The notes under the pieces were generated by a model. That model was not told the origin of the DNA. It saw nothing but the letters and a program-made list of their open reading frames with translations, and made no database searches. DNA of 64,000 bases from Terrirhizobium terrae (GTDB taxonomy: Bacteria; Pseudomonadota; Alphaproteobacteria; Rhizobiales; Rhizobiaceae): positions 2,579,501-2,643,500 of the forward strand of contig NZ_CP104992.1 in the NCBI RefSeq assembly GCF_030323265.1, written 5' to 3'. Shown here piece after piece: positions 9,576 to 16,071 of this stretch. The translations under genes and the position numbers were made by a program. Each line of letters begins with the position of its first letter. Position 1 is the first letter of the stretch.

Positions 9576-12500
9576 ATGAAGTTCAACAAGCTGCGCCTCG
9601 TCGGGTTCAAGTCCTTCGTCGAGCCGACGGAATTCTTCATCGAGCGCGGCCTGACCGGTGTGGTCGGGCCGAATGGCTGCGGCAAGTCGAACCTTGTCGA
9701 AGCCCTGCGCTGGGTGATGGGCGAAAACTCCTACAAGAACATGCGTGCGTCCGGCATGGACGACGTGATCTTTTCCGGCTCCGGAAATCGCCCGGCGCGC
9801 AACACCGCCGAAGTCGGGCTTTATCTCGACAATTTCGACCGCACCGCGCCTGCCGCCTTCAACGATGCCGACGAGATCCAGGTCACCCGCCGCATCGAGC
9901 GCGAGAACGGTTCCGTCTACCGCATCAACGGCAAGGAAAGCCGCGCCAAGGACGTACAGCTTCTCTTCGCCGATGCCTCGACGGGCGCCCGCTCGCCTTC
10001 CATGGTCGGGCAGGGGCGTATCGGCGAGCTGATCAATGCCAAGCCGCAGGCCCGCCGCCAGCTCCTGGAAGAGGCAGCCGGCATCTCCGGCCTGCATTCG
10101 CGTCGCCACGAGGCAGAGCTTCGCCTGCGCGCCGCCGAAACCAATCTGGAACGGCTGGAAGATGTCGTCGTCCAGCTGGAAAGCCAGATCGAGAGCCTCA
10201 AGCGTCAGGCCCGCCAGGCGAACCGTTTCAAGTCGCTTTCGGCCGATATTCGCGCCCGCGAGGCGATGCTCCTGCATATCCGCTGGGTCGAGGCCGAACA
10301 GGCGGAACTGGAAGCCCAGACCGCGCTGAACCAGATCACCAATGTCGTCGCCGAAAAGGCGCAGGTGCAGATGGAAGCGGCCAAGGACCAGGCGGTCTCC
10401 AGCCTCAAGCTGCCCGAACTGCGCGAGGAGGAGGCGAAAGCCGGTGCCGCCCTGCAGCGCCTGCAGATCGCCCGCAGCCAGCTGGAGGAAGAGGCCGGAC
10501 GCCTCTTGAAGCGGCGCGACGAGCTGACCCGCCGGCTGGCGCAGCTCGGCGAGGACATTCGCCGCGAGGAACAGCTCGCCGCCGACAACACAGCCTTCCT
10601 CGACAAGCTCGACGAGGAAGAGGCCGAACTCAACGACATGCTGGCCGATAGCGGCGCGGAAAGCGCCGATCTGCGCGATGCCTTCGAGGCGGCCGGCACT
10701 GCGCTTGCCGAGAGCGAGCAGCGCCTCGCCGCGATCACCGGCGAACGCGCTGAAGCCGCTGCCGGCCGCAACCAGCTGGAACGCCTGATCCGCGATCTCG
10801 ACGAGCGCCGCCAGCGTCTCGACCGCCAGCGGCAGGATGCGGCTGCAGAACGTGATGCCGTCACGGAGCGCCTGTCTTCGCTCGACGATCCCGCCGAAAA
10901 GGCCGAACTAGTCGAGGCTGCCGAGATCGGGCTGGAAGATGCGACCGCCGCCGCCGAGGAAGCCGAAGCGGCTCTGGCCACAACCCGTGCCGCGGAAGTC
11001 TCCGCTCGCCGTCCGGTCGAGGATGCGAAGACGGCGCTGAACGGGCTGGAAACCGAAGCCCGCACCATCTCGAAAATGCTGGCCGCTGGCGCGACCTCCG
11101 GGGACCATGTGCCGGTCGCCGAAATGATCCATGTCGAGCGTGGTTATGAGGCCGCACTTGGTGCCGCCCTCGGCGACGATCTCGAAAGCCCGGTCGATGC
11201 GTCCGCGTCGAAATTCTGGTCGGTCAGTGGCGATGCCTCTGCCGATCCGCGCCTCCCAGACGGCGTCGAGCCGCTTGCCGCCCGCGTCACCGCCCCGCCG
11301 GAACTCGCTCGCCGTCTTGCCCAGATCGGCATCACATCGGCTGAACAGGCCCGCACGTTGATGGCCTCCTCAAGCCCGGCCAGCGGCTCGTGACGAAGGA
11401 TGGCGCCGTCTATCGCTGGGACGGCCATGTGACCGGCTCCGAGGCGCCCGGCGCGGCTGCCCTTCGCCTGTCGCAGAAGAACCGCCTTTCCGAACTCGAA
11501 GCCGAGATCGACGAGGCCCGCGACATCCTCTCTGAATGCGAGAGCCTGCTCGCCGACGCCACAGCCGAGATCGCCACGAGCGAACGCGTCCTCGGCGATG
11601 CTCGCGACCGTGTCAGGCTCGCGACCCGTCAGGTGGCCGATGCCCGTGAGGCTCTGGCTGCCGCAGAGCGCGCCTCCGGTGACCTGATGCGCCGCCGTGA
11701 CGTGGTGACGGAGGCGCTGCATCAGGTCGAGGCGCAGATCGAGGATGTCGATGCGCAGGGCGAAAATGCGCGCATTGAGTTGGAAAACGCGCCGGATATT
11801 TCCGAGCTCGACAATCGCCTGCGCGACCAGCAGGCCGAGGTCGCCACCGATCGCGGCCGTCTGGCCGAGGCCCGCGCCCGCTACGAAGGCTTGAGCCGCG
11901 AGCTGGAAGCCCGCAAGCGCCGCATCGCGGCCATTGCCCAGGAGCGCTCCTCTTGGAAGGCGCGTGCCGATAGCGCCGCCGCCCATATCGAAAGCCTGCG
12001 TGAACGCGAGGAAGAAGCGCGCGACGAAATCGTCGAACTGGAAGCCGCACCCGAAGAGGTGGATGATCGCCGCCGCAGCCTGCTGTCGGAACTGCAGAAG
12101 GCCGAGGAAGCCCGCCGCAAGGCGTCCGACGAACTCGCTCTCGCCGAAACCCGCCAGCGCGAGGCCGACCAGCGTGCCGCAACCGCCCTGTCCGAACTGG
12201 CCGACGTCCGCGAAAAGCGCGGCCGCGCCGAAGAACGTCTCGTCTCCGCCGCCGAAAAACGTCACGAGAGCGAGCTGCGCATCCGCGAGGCACTCAATGT
12301 CTCGCCGCCCGAAGTGCTGCGCCTTGCCGGCATGCAGCCCGGCCAGCCTGTGCCGGATATCCGCGCCATCGAGCGCGAGGTCGATCGCCTGAAGATGGAG
12401 CGCGAGCGCCTCGGCGCCGTCAACCTGCGCGCCGACGAGGAACAGCAGGAACTGGCCGAAAAGCTCGGTACCTTGACCCGCGAGCGCGACGACGTGGTCG

Positions 12501-13036
12501 ATGCCATCCGCAAGCTGCGCGGCGCAATCCAGAACCTGAACAAGGAAGGCCGCGAGCGTCTGATCGCCGCCTTCGACGTGGTCAACGCCCAGTTCCAGCG
12601 CCTGTTCACCCATCTCTTCGGCGGCGGCACGGCGGAACTGCAGCTGATAGAATCGGATGACCCGCTGGAAGCTGGTCTCGAAATTCTCGCCCGCCCGCCG
12701 GGCAAGAAGCCGCAGACCATGACGCTGCTCTCGGGCGGCGAACAGGCGCTGACGGCGATGGCACTGATCTTTGCCGTCTTCCTCACCAATCCCGCGCCGA
12801 TCTGCGTGCTGGACGAGGTGGACGCGCCGCTCGACGACCACAATGTCGAGCGCTACTGCAACCTGATGGACGAGATGGCCGCATCGACCGAGACGCGCTT
12901 CATCATCATCACGCATAATCCGATCACCATGGCACGGATGAACCGTTTGTTTGGCGTGACGATGGCGGAACAGGGCGTGTCGCAATTGGTATCGGTCGAC
13001 CTGCAGACCGCCGAGCTTCTGCGCGAAGCAAGCTGA
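9576..13036 (+). CDS. smc: Chromosome segregation ATPase SMC, frameshifted in the hinge
   Basis: SMC forms a ring-shaped dimer that condenses and segregates the chromosome with ScpAB. The N-terminal head has Walker A GPNGCGKSN at residues 31-39. Long coiled coils flank a central hinge. The C-terminal head has the ABC signature LLSGGEQALTAMAL and Walker B PICVLDEVDAPLDD. The gene is split between two frames at about 11368-11370. Adding one C turns the dead-end tail into ASLKPGQRLVTKDGAVYRWDG and restores 1,153 residues, the expected length. The break is in the hinge, and such a mutation would probably be very deleterious, so a sequence error is the likely cause. Confidence 0.95.
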
Positions 13037-13054
13037 CAAAAAATCAGTCTCGCA

Positions 13055-13070
13055 AATAAATCGATTTATT
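13055..13070. repeat. 16-base perfect palindrome after smc
   Basis: AATAAATCGATTTATT is self-complementary over all 16 bases and lies 18 bases after the smc stop in AT-rich DNA. No T-tract follows, so it is not a normal terminator. It is the first structural element in the 362-base gap between smc and ppdK. Confidence 0.5.
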
Positions 13071-13150
13071 GTCATCATAAATACGTCAATTCACCTATAT
13101 GGGTGATGCGCAAAATGCGGTATATGAATACATGAATTAGACAATTCGTC

Positions 13151-13277
13151 GGGGGCTGGGGGCGCACCTTCTGGTGCGAATAGCCATCCTGACGGATGCT
13201 ACCCCCGCGCGGGTTTCCTGTCCCGCGCGGAAGGCTTTGCGGGGCCGAGTGTGATCCGGCCCCGCAAAGCCTTTTAA
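13151..13277 (+). ncRNA. Candidate structured RNA between smc and ppdK
   Basis: A compact series of helices with no convincing coding frame. A GGGGG/CCCCC helix (13158-13162 with 13202-13206) encloses two hairpins: CGCACC-TTCT-GGTGCG (13163-13178) and CATCC-TGAC-GGATG (13185-13198). Next is a 9-base-pair hairpin CCGCGCGGG/CCCGCGCGG (13205-13230) that shares two bases with the first helix, and last a strong terminator. This is the layout of a free small RNA or a regulated leader. I recognise no named family, and a plain string of terminators is the alternative. Confidence 0.45.
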
Positions 13278-13281
13278 TTTC
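13231..13281 (+). terminator. Strong Rho-independent terminator before ppdK
   Basis: A perfect 16-base-pair stem (AAGGCTTTGCGGGGCC, 13231-13246, with its complement at 13258-13273) around an 11-base loop is followed by TTTAATTT. It ends either smc readthrough or the candidate RNA. Confidence 0.85.
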
Positions 13282-13304
13282 ACCCATCTAGCTGTCTCAT
13301 CGTC

Positions 13305-13327
13305 ATTATGTTGCGCCGCAACATAAT
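13305..13327. promoter_or_regulatory. 23-base palindrome upstream of ppdK
   Basis: ATTATGTTGCG and CGCAACATAAT are perfect inverted repeats around a single central C, ending 71 bases before the ppdK start. A one-base centre is too tight for an RNA hairpin loop, so a dimeric regulator site is more likely. The regulator is unknown. Confidence 0.5.
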
Positions 13328-13398
13328 CCTGCCCCGTTGAATTCCTAACCTATTGCAAAATCTGCAAATGCGGGGGAAAGATGCGGTGGGAGGCAGGC

Positions 13399-16071
13399 AT
13401 GACGAAATGGGTTTATCTGTTCGGAGGAGGCGAGGCTGATGGCAGCGCTGCGGACGTGGCGTTGCTCGGAGGAAAGGGCGCTCATCTCGCGGAAATGGCC
13501 AATCTCGGCCTTCCGGTTCCTCCAGGCCTCACGATCACCTGCGATGCCTGCCATGATTTCTTCGACAACGGCAAGAAGCTCTGCGATGAGCTGAAGAACC
13601 AGGTTATCGCGGGCATCAAGACGATCGAAGCCAAGACCGGCCGCGTCTTTGGTGGCGGCGAGCGGCCGCTGCTTCTCTCCATCCGCTCCGGCGCGCGCGC
13701 CTCCATGCCGGGCATGATGGACACTGTCCTCAATCTCGGCCTCAACGATAAGACCGTCCAGGCACTCGGCCATGATGCCGGCGACGCGCGATTTGCCTGG
13801 GACAGTTATCGCCGCTTCATCCAGATGTATGCCGATGTCGTCATGGGCCTCGACCATGAGGCCTTTGAAGAAATTCTCGAAGACCAGAAGGGCGCGCTCG
13901 GGCACGAGCAGGACACCGATCTCTCGGCCGTCGAATGGCAGCATATCGTCGATCTCTACAAGCGCCTGATCGAGGAAGAGCTTGGCGAGAGTTTCCCGCA
14001 GGATCCCGACGTGCAGTTGTGGAAGGCGATCGCCGCCGTATTCTCGAGCTGGAACAATGCCCGCGCCGCGACGTATCGCAACCTGCACCGCATTCCCGAC
14101 AGCTGGGGCACGGCCGTCAACGTCCAGGCCATGGTCTTCGGCAATCTCGGCTCGACGTCTGCCACCGGCGTGGCCTTCACCCGCAATCCCTCGACCGGCG
14201 AGAAGGCGCTCTATGGCGAGTTCCTGGTCAATGCCCAGGGCGAGGATGTCGTTGCCGGCATGCGTACGCCGCAGTCGATCACCGAGGAAGGGCGCCTCGC
14301 ATCCGGCTCCGACAAGCCGTCGATGGAAAAGCTGATGCCGGCAGCCTTCACTGAGTTTCGCGCCACCTGCGAGCGACTTGAGAACCACTATCGCGATCTG
14401 CAGGATGTCGAATTCACCGTCGAGCGTGGCAAGCTGTGGATGCTGCAGACGCGCACCGGCAAGCGGACGACAAGGGCCGCGATGAAGATCGCGGCCGATC
14501 TCGTCGCCGAGGGCCTGATTTCCGAAGAGGAAGCGGTCTGTCGCATCGAGCCGTCCTCACTGGATCAGCTGCTGCATCCGACGATCGACCCCAAGGTCCA
14601 GCGCCATATCCTCGGCTCCGGCCTGCCTGCGTCGCCGGGCGCTGCCACAGGAGAGATCGTCTTCACCGCCGAACAGGCGGTGGAGGCCGAAGCGGAAGGC
14701 CGCCGCGTTATCCTCGTGCGTATCGAGACGAGCCCCGAAGACATCCACGGCATGCATGCGGCCGAGGCGATCCTGACCACCCGTGGCGGCATGACCAGCC
14801 ACGCGGCCGTCGTCGCCCGCGGCATGGGCATTCCCTGCGTCGTCGGTGCCGGATCGATGCGTGTCGACCTGCGCAACGAGCTGCTGATCGGCGTCGGCGG
14901 TGTCACGCTCAGAAAGGGCGACATCGTCACCATCGACGGCTCGTCCGGCCAGGTGCTGAAGGGCAGCGTCGCCATGCTGCAGCCGGAACTCTCCGGCGAT
15001 TTCGGCAAGCTGATGGCCTGGGCTGACAAGACGCGCCGCATGTCCGTCAGGACCAATGCCGACACGCCGCAGGATGCCCGGTCGGCCCGCTCCTTCGGCG
15101 CCGAGGGCATCGGCCTCTGCCGAACCGAGCATATGTTCTTCGAGGGCGAGCGCATCCACATCATGCGCGAGATGATCCTCGCGGAAGACGAGACTGCGCG
15201 TCGTGCGGCGCTCGCCAAGCTTCTGCCGATGCAGAGGTCGGACTTCACCGAGATCTTTTCGATCATGCACGGCCTGCCGGTGACGATCCGCCTTCTCGAT
15301 CCGCCTCTGCACGAATTCCTGCCGAAGACGGAGGCAGAGATCGAGGACGTGGCGCGTGCCATGGGCATGCCGCCTGCCTTCCTCGCCCGCCGCATCGACG
15401 CTATCCACGAGTTCAACCCGATGCTTGGCCACCGCGGCTGCCGCCTGGCGATCTCCTATCCCGAGATCGCCGAAATGCAGGCGCGCGCCATCTTCGAGGC
15501 CGCGACCGAGGCTGCCGGCATGACCGGCGAACCGGTCGAACTGGAAATCCTCGTGCCGCTGGTCGGCCTCCGCGCCGAGCTCGACTACGTCAAGGGCGTG
15601 ATCGATGCGGTGGCCGGGGAGGTTTCGAAGGAGACCGGCCGGCCGATCGACTATCTCGCCGGCACGATGATCGAGCTGCCACGCGCGGCGATCCGCGCCC
15701 ATGTGATTGCCGAGACCGCCGATTTCTTCTCCTTCGGCACCAACGACCTGACCCAGACCACTTTCGGCATTTCCCGCGATGACGCTGCGACCTTCATTCC
15801 AACGTATCAGCGCAAGGGCATCATCGAGCACGACCCTTTCGTGTCTCTCGATTTCGACGGTGTCGGCGAGTTGATCCAGATTGCGGCAGAGCGCGGGCGC
15901 CGGACCAAGCCGGATCTCAAGCTCGGCATTTGCGGTGAACACGGCGGCGATCCAGCGTCGATCCGCTTCTGCGAGAATGCCGATCTCGACTACGTCTCCT
16001 GCTCGCCCTTCCGCGTGCCAGTTGCCCGACTGGCAGCGGCCCAGGCGGCGATCGACAAGCGGCGCGGTTGA
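13399..16071 (+). CDS. ppdK: Pyruvate, phosphate dikinase
   Basis: An 890-residue enzyme that interconverts pyruvate + ATP + phosphate with phosphoenolpyruvate + AMP + pyrophosphate, linking glycolytic and gluconeogenic flux. The nucleotide-binding domain occupies the N-terminal 350 residues (LGGKGAHLAEMANLGLPVPPG). The phosphohistidine domain has the catalytic histidine in TTRGGMTSHAAVVARGMG. The C-terminal PEP/pyruvate barrel ends with the catalytic cysteine in GICGEHGGDPAS. Length and domain order are normal. The start is set by GGGAGG before ATG 13399 rather than the ATG at 13381. It is a single-gene unit behind a strong terminator and a 23-base palindrome. Confidence 0.95.
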   Translation: MTKWVYLFGGGEADGSAADVALLGGKGAHLAEMANLGLPVPPGLTITCDACHDFFDNGKKLCDELKNQVIAGIKTIEAKTGRVFGGGERPLLLSIRSGARASMPGMMDTVLNLGLNDKTVQALGHDAGDARFAWDSYRRFIQMYADVVMGLDHEAFEEILEDQKGALGHEQDTDLSAVEWQHIVDLYKRLIEEELGESFPQDPDVQLWKAIAAVFSSWNNARAATYRNLHRIPDSWGTAVNVQAMVFGNLGSTSATGVAFTRNPSTGEKALYGEFLVNAQGEDVVAGMRTPQSITEEGRLASGSDKPSMEKLMPAAFTEFRATCERLENHYRDLQDVEFTVERGKLWMLQTRTGKRTTRAAMKIAADLVAEGLISEEEAVCRIEPSSLDQLLHPTIDPKVQRHILGSGLPASPGAATGEIVFTAEQAVEAEAEGRRVILVRIETSPEDIHGMHAAEAILTTRGGMTSHAAVVARGMGIPCVVGAGSMRVDLRNELLIGVGGVTLRKGDIVTIDGSSGQVLKGSVAMLQPELSGDFGKLMAWADKTRRMSVRTNADTPQDARSARSFGAEGIGLCRTEHMFFEGERIHIMREMILAEDETARRAALAKLLPMQRSDFTEIFSIMHGLPVTIRLLDPPLHEFLPKTEAEIEDVARAMGMPPAFLARRIDAIHEFNPMLGHRGCRLAISYPEIAEMQARAIFEAATEAAGMTGEPVELEILVPLVGLRAELDYVKGVIDAVAGEVSKETGRPIDYLAGTMIELPRAAIRAHVIAETADFFSFGTNDLTQTTFGISRDDAATFIPTYQRKGIIEHDPFVSLDFDGVGELIQIAAERGRRTKPDLKLGICGEHGGDPASIRFCENADLDYVSCSPFRVPVARLAAAQAAIDKRRG

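Follow-up and report, generated by a model that had tools for sequence, protein, structure and literature searches.

The intergenic element between smc and ppdK in the window, i.e., the whole 64,000-nucleotide stretch of Terrirhizobium terrae DNA analyzed, is probably an autonomous small-RNA (sRNA) gene whose product would work by base pairing. Comparison of related loci at the level of the sequence established the structure of the element, covariation in its 3′ core, its separability from both neighboring genes, the conservation of a palindrome upstream, and its distribution.

Of the two neighbors in the window, smc ends (second frame) at position 13036 and ppdK starts at 13399, or at 13381 when counted from its first ATG; they gave domain matches to SMC_N (smc) and PPDK (ppdK). 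The original prediction had placed an RNA-like element at 13151–13281. This stretch folds at −82.5 kcal/mol, far more stably than shuffled sequences (z = −7.06, 0/200 shuffles as good), and the element can be taken as real. The folding signal is concentrated in the 3′ half of the stretch, and the extent of the element had to be revised: the conserved portion is the 3′ core, and the unit begins 5′ of 13151, with the palindrome and the predicted start (∼13133) lying upstream (Table 1). As a separate observation, smc is present in the window (9576–13036) as two overlapping frames of 605 and 548 amino acids, and in most relatives as a single frame of approximately 1150 to 1250 amino acids. The split is likely due to an indel in the window's assembly (91.25% complete).

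Table 1. Features of the smc–ppdK intergenic region, in window positions
Feature	Position	Strand	Basis or composition
Near-palindrome TCACCTATATGGGTGA of 16 bp; likely operator of the sRNA promoter	13091–13106	+	Rarity and recurrence in relatives
Candidate −10 element TATATG	13121–13126	+	Read from the sequence, 12 nt past the GATG of the palindrome
Predicted RNA start	near 13133	+	Inferred
Clade-specific 5′ hairpin domain	13138–13201	+	13138–13158 with 13181–13201; inner hairpin 13163–13168/13173–13178; minimum-energy fold
Conserved 3′ core	13201–13276	+	C-tract, hairpin with loop UUUCCUGU, 17–19-bp terminator
ACCCCC, candidate single-stranded seed (ACCCCCC in relatives)	13201–13206	+	Conservation, predicted accessibility
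Hairpin I, conserved loop UUUCCUGU at 13214–13221	13205–13230	+	9 pairs; loop resembles an anti-ribosome-site motif
Hairpin II, rho-independent terminator with short U-tail	13231–13276	+	Fold versus shuffles, covariation
PhaR/AniA-type box GTTGCGCCGCAAC before ppdK, outside the sRNA	13310–13322	+	Contains the PhaR-motif core YGCRNYGCR

The 3′ core opens with the C-tract, which comprises six Cs in 70 of the 71 distinct loci and five in the window (13202–13206); the shorter tract is perhaps a homopolymer error of the assembly, or real. In 40 of 54 predicted RNAs, the first four Cs were mostly free (mean probability of being unpaired above 0.5). The tract was mostly paired in 14 of the 54 (11 Rhizobium-type, 3 from the window's genus), which counts against the sRNA reading. 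Hairpin I folded better than most shuffles (13206–13230: z = −4.29, 2/200 as good), six of its nine pairs were changed on both sides among the relatives, and the UUCCUG of its loop had a mean unpaired probability above 0.5 in all 54 RNAs. The original prediction of a 9-bp hairpin competing with a closing helix agrees with these data, as the hairpin at 13205–13230 has nine pairs and, because it pairs the final two Cs of the tract, competes with that helix. The terminator stood out most from its shuffles (13229–13275: z = −8.31, 0/200), and 5 of 17 stem pairs were changed on both sides. Thus, of the 16-bp terminator with a T-tract originally proposed, the strong stem was confirmed, but it comprises 17 to 19 pairs and the T-tract is weak (TTTTAATTT). 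A simple terminator scan of 12950–13450 listed no site.

Covariation was evaluated with two alignments. In a MAFFT alignment of 15 relatives, made without fitting to structure, 99.5% of cells were paired and 20 cells were changed on both sides (0/500 shuffles each); the number of pairs changed on both sides was five, matched by 49 of 500 shuffles. When 71 rows, 53 of them distinct, were aligned with model R1, pairing held in 97.7% of cells, 11 of 26 pairs were changed on both sides, and none of 500 shuffles reached any of five measures; this alignment is model-fitted and so leans to the structure, and it includes one opposite-strand row (L025). The lineage g42 (L069 and L273) has a short 5′ part and retains both hairpins with replaced pairs, the loop, and the palindrome (2 and 3 of 16 positions mismatched). 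The check for compensatory changes, one part of the refutation test set for the element, spoke against refutation in the 3′ half, where such changes are present; covariation in the 5′ half was not above shuffles. By fold and covariation, the core has the properties of a conserved structured RNA with its own predicted terminator, as would be expected of a trans-acting sRNA gene.

For the 5′ half, the prediction of a GGGGG/CCCCC closing helix around two hairpins was not borne out: the domain 13150–13206 alone yielded z = −1.96 with 7/200 shuffles as good. The closing helix appeared in the minimum-energy fold when the RNA was started at 13151. With starts at 13121, 13128, 13134, or 13140, it was missing, 13202–13204 were unpaired, and the G run was taken up in the long 5′ helix; with a start at 13100, three Cs of the C-tract paired elsewhere. 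Among eight distinct close relatives, 72.7% of cells were paired for the second inner hairpin of the original prediction, 95.5% for the alternative long 5′ helix, and 96.0% for the long helix together with its inner hairpin; covariation of the 5′ domain in this set was not above shuffles (51/500). Eleven of 54 RNAs carry a GGGGG run in their predicted 5′ part, and across the lineages read the length of the 5′ domain varied from roughly 30 to 220 nt. A switch based on the closing helix was rejected in view of the rarity of the G run, the poor retention of the inner hairpin, the covariation at shuffle level in the 5′ domain, and the loss of the helix from upstream starts. By the first two of these values, a pair of mutually exclusive conserved folds, as a ppdK attenuator requires, was not found.

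The palindrome upstream of the RNA is rare. No other place in the window comes within three mismatches of TCACCCATATGGGTGA, and the genome holds no second site within one mismatch of TCACCYATATRGGTGA. The exact palindrome was found in 6 of 57 same-genus genomes, in all six solely at the smc–ppdK locus. An 18-nt version was present with at most four mismatches in 54 of the 71 distinct loci, approximately 100 to 260 nt 5′ of the C-tract. In a control of 30 shuffles per locus, the mean best match had ∼8 mismatches, with single shuffles reaching 4; this count is not a blind test, since the consensus was derived from the same loci. A site within four mismatches was missing in 17 of the 71 loci, which counts against an autonomous sRNA gene. 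In the 330 nt before ppdK of four sRNA-less relatives, the best match had 6 mismatches in 16 positions. The spacing between the palindrome and the −10-like element differs among clades. On account of its rarity, its conservation, and this variable spacing, the palindrome was read as the likely operator of the sRNA promoter. A sigma-70 scan of 12950–13450 gave no promoter at the predicted start, which is a further point against an autonomous gene; the sole promoter-like site in this range lies before ppdK (13300–13327, 0.5 sites expected by chance).

Five further places in the genome (L232–L236) were within two mismatches of the looser 18-nt pattern TNACCCANWTGGGTGATG, and a control with the reversed pattern gave none. 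In L233, both palindrome arms are exact (TCACCC-GAAT-GGGTGA), and in L236, the palindrome-like site lies between two divergent ORFs. These five places are possible further targets of the putative regulator of the palindrome. In another group of loci (L024 and L027–L032), a same-strand ORF of 139 to 261 amino acids stands between smc and the RNA, and no palindrome site within four mismatches was found; the RNA apparently uses another promoter there.

The window's genus is Neorhizobium-type and includes Neorhizobium galegae, N. alkalisoli, and N. huautlense; 52 of its 57 genomes scanned matched model R1. In the Rhizobium genus to which R. croatiense and R. ecuadorense belong, 104 of 148 genomes matched R2. 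The covariance model, like the palindrome consensus, was derived from the loci it counts. In wider scans, 14 of 394 genomes, in 4 of 109 genera, matched across the family (10/297 with R1), and 5 of 297 genomes across the order, in two genera of the same family. The wide scans scored 12 to 16 candidates per genome, so that weak copies may have been missed. Genomes are referred to as sRNA-less according to strict-filter scans, and in some of them the gap itself was read. A named pattern scan yielded at least 119 stretches; among the matches listed, the element is present in 49, always with at least one of smc and ppdK nearby, and 70 of the 119 fail the fuller pattern. One contig among the matches listed (L178), labeled as an Acidobacteriaceae metagenome-assembled genome, carries Rhizobiaceae-like smc, sRNA, and ppdK and is probably mis-binned.

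The position of the element relative to its neighbors bears on two alternative readings. In 129 fetched element loci (duplicates included), smc was upstream in 121 of the 121 in which it was in reach, and ppdK was downstream in 125 of 125. One of them is that the element is the terminator of smc (its 3′ UTR) and that any small RNA is a by-product of read-through from smc or of smc transcript processing. For this reading, the element follows smc by approximately 130 to 260 nt on the same strand in many loci of the window's genus, and no promoter-like site was scored from smc to the hairpins. However, the gap to smc exceeds 400 nt in 25 of the 121 loci and reaches 4514 nt in R. phaseoli JHI366 (L150), with three opposite-strand ORFs of 303 to 696 amino acids in between; in R. 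croatiense, 2.5 kb and an opposite-strand ORF of 372 amino acids intervene. Furthermore, the loop and C-tract are conserved besides the stem, the palindrome is conserved upstream of the element, and a pattern search found no element 3′ of smc in 26 of 30 family-wide smc loci. We consider an smc terminator unlikely as the explanation.

Far less probable still is a switchable leader of ppdK, acting as attenuator or riboswitch, one of the two functions originally suggested. It could build on the many genomes in which the element stands approximately 110 to 140 nt before a conserved ppdK start on the same strand, and on the two mutually exclusive folds that can be drawn. Against it, adjacency to ppdK does not hold throughout: in seven fetched loci (four genomes, the rest duplicates), 1170 to 1264 nt and an opposite-strand ORF of 326 to 327 amino acids, identified in L012 as a Glyoxalase-type protein, separate the element from ppdK, and on this ground the ppdK leader was rejected. 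The PhaR-type box of ppdK lies 3′ of the terminator, the closing helix lacks its G run in 43 of 54 RNAs and its inner hairpin is poorly kept, and no Rfam riboswitch was matched. As opposite-strand ORFs part the element from smc in some genomes and from ppdK in others, it is probably neither a ppdK leader nor just an smc terminator.

The other function originally suggested, an independent small RNA, is favored by the covariation of the 3′ core, the co-inherited palindrome, the ORFs that part the RNA from either neighbor, and the absence of the unit from four relatives. In these same-genus genomes without the sRNA (L247, L248, L249, and L252; L250 was left out of this reading), smc is followed within approximately 10 to 20 nt by the PhaR-type box, and palindrome, RNA, and terminator are all missing together.

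The PhaR-type box contains YGCRNYGCR, which is the core of the PhaR motif of Sinorhizobium meliloti, where the ppdK promoter is bound and regulated by PhaR (PMC12542648). A like box precedes ppdK in relatives both with and without the sRNA, and in the window it overlaps the promoter-like site at 13300–13327. From the position of the box 3′ of the terminator and the PhaR binding in S. meliloti, it follows that ppdK is most likely transcribed from a promoter of its own, 3′ of the sRNA.

The ppdK start was evaluated as a target of the C-tract. In the window's species, none of 75 background genes paired as well as ppdK, and similar values were obtained for G447 (0/57), G477 (0/72), and G402 (1/58); pairing was weaker in G027 (7.6% of 66 as good) and G002 (11% of 73), and two of the eight species were dropped from the comparison (G016 and G018). 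With a longer RNA segment, ppdK ranked first among 50 window ORFs. Cognate sRNA–ppdK pairs had a slight advantage over swapped ones (p = 0.023, with no correction for kinship; 10 of 70 loci dropped because no start was recognized). These results would suit an sRNA gene with ppdK as its main target, the C-tract masking the G-rich ribosome site, which is a special case of the autonomous sRNA gene. Against this, p was below 0.05 versus shuffled start regions in just 8 of 70 loci, and the ppdK starts of Rhizobium genomes without the sRNA were equally good, with a median of 0.5% of 187 background genes as good for both the 12 loci with and the 13 loci without it. In the window's genus, the starts were middling (medians of 9% of background genes as good with and 25% without the sRNA). 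Two of the 49 loci were dropped from this comparison, which used 13 of 20 sRNA-less Rhizobium loci; the seven unused were six without a recognized start and L270, and in one of those used, L271, the ppdK frame contains stops. The G-rich ribosome site of ppdK is thus a possible target, suggestive in its pairing and shared by genomes that lack the RNA. Because the latter pair as well, ppdK remains a lead, and we regard it as doubtful that ppdK is the main target. Slightly more tentative is the wider proposal that a dedicated, operator-controlled sRNA emerged beside ppdK in the Rhizobium/Neorhizobium lineage and governs the translation of PpdK and of other mRNAs with G-rich sites via its C-tract. 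If true, it would add a post-transcriptional layer atop the PhaR/PHB control of the pyruvate–PEP node in root-nodule bacteria.

A further alternative is a protein-binding RNA, i.e., a sponge for a regulator, with the invariant loop and the near-invariant terminator stem as binding site. It would account for the letters of loop and terminator stem varying less than pairing requires, which in the stem antisense pairing alone leaves unexplained. However, each RNA has a single copy of the core with no repeated binding sites, and no protein motif was recognized in an unsystematic look; we judge a sponge improbable, though not to the degree of the ppdK leader.

For the autonomous sRNA gene, we infer transcription, start point, operator role, base-pairing mode, Hfq involvement, and targets as follows. 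The palindromic operator would overlap the promoter, and an RNA of ∼144 nt would start near 13133 and end at the terminator. Predicted RNA sizes are approximately 135 to 150 nt in the window's genus and 165 to 295 nt in Rhizobium. It would consist of a variable, clade-specific 5′ domain and the conserved 3′ core with C-tract, UUUCCUGU hairpin, and terminator with U-tail. Acting in trans, the C-tract and the loop would pair with G-rich and CAGGAA-type ribosome-binding sites and thereby block translation of target mRNAs, with Hfq probably bound to the U-tail. For bacteria of importance to agriculture, this adds an RNA gene with comparatively good support, for which a covariance model that works and a palindrome on the promoter side are at hand; among the matches listed, copies occur in R. 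leguminosarum, R. phaseoli, and N. galegae. The rare palindrome offers a handle on its putative regulator, and the presence or absence of the gene in close relatives makes its function testable by deletion and by transfer between laboratory strains.

No report of this RNA was found in the partly covered literature on the smc–ppdK gap, ppdK, rhizobial sRNAs, and the letters of the element; the noncoding RNAs from an R. etli array (PMC2881028, supplement) may include it. At gathering score, Rfam 15 gave only two tRNAs in the window and no match in nine related loci, and membership in its families (alpha-r sRNAs, suhB, riboswitches) was rejected on this basis. The element is probably a lineage-specific sRNA gene of an ordinary kind, its expression and function being predictions. 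The best subthreshold match was to BjrC80 (RF02354), likewise a GC-rich multihairpin sRNA, with 19.9 and 19.1 bits; the gathering score of this family is 80, and the scores of the two strands are similar, so that it probably reflects base composition.

In the AbcR RNAs, the third stem-loop is the terminator. AbcR1 and AbcR2 (alpha-r15, suhB RF00519) resemble the RNA described here in being intergenic and in having three stem-loops with anti-ribosome-site motifs in unpaired parts, at lengths of 114 to 120 nt versus the ∼144 nt predicted here (PMC7143759). They differ in genomic place and in their motifs, which are CU-rich there and ACCCCCC plus UUUCCUGU here, and RF00519 was not matched at gathering score by the present element. 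RsaE-type sRNAs of Gram-positive bacteria have a C-rich seed, unpaired and directed against G-rich ribosome sites. The likeness to this type lies in the candidate C-tract seed as a feature, and the phylum is different. The network of MmgR and PhaR (AniA) in S. meliloti is similar in that an sRNA is tied to PHB control and ppdK is under PhaR (PMC12542648). MmgR, however, is a separate RNA that is itself controlled by PhaR, whereas here the PhaR-type box stands before ppdK, behind the sRNA.
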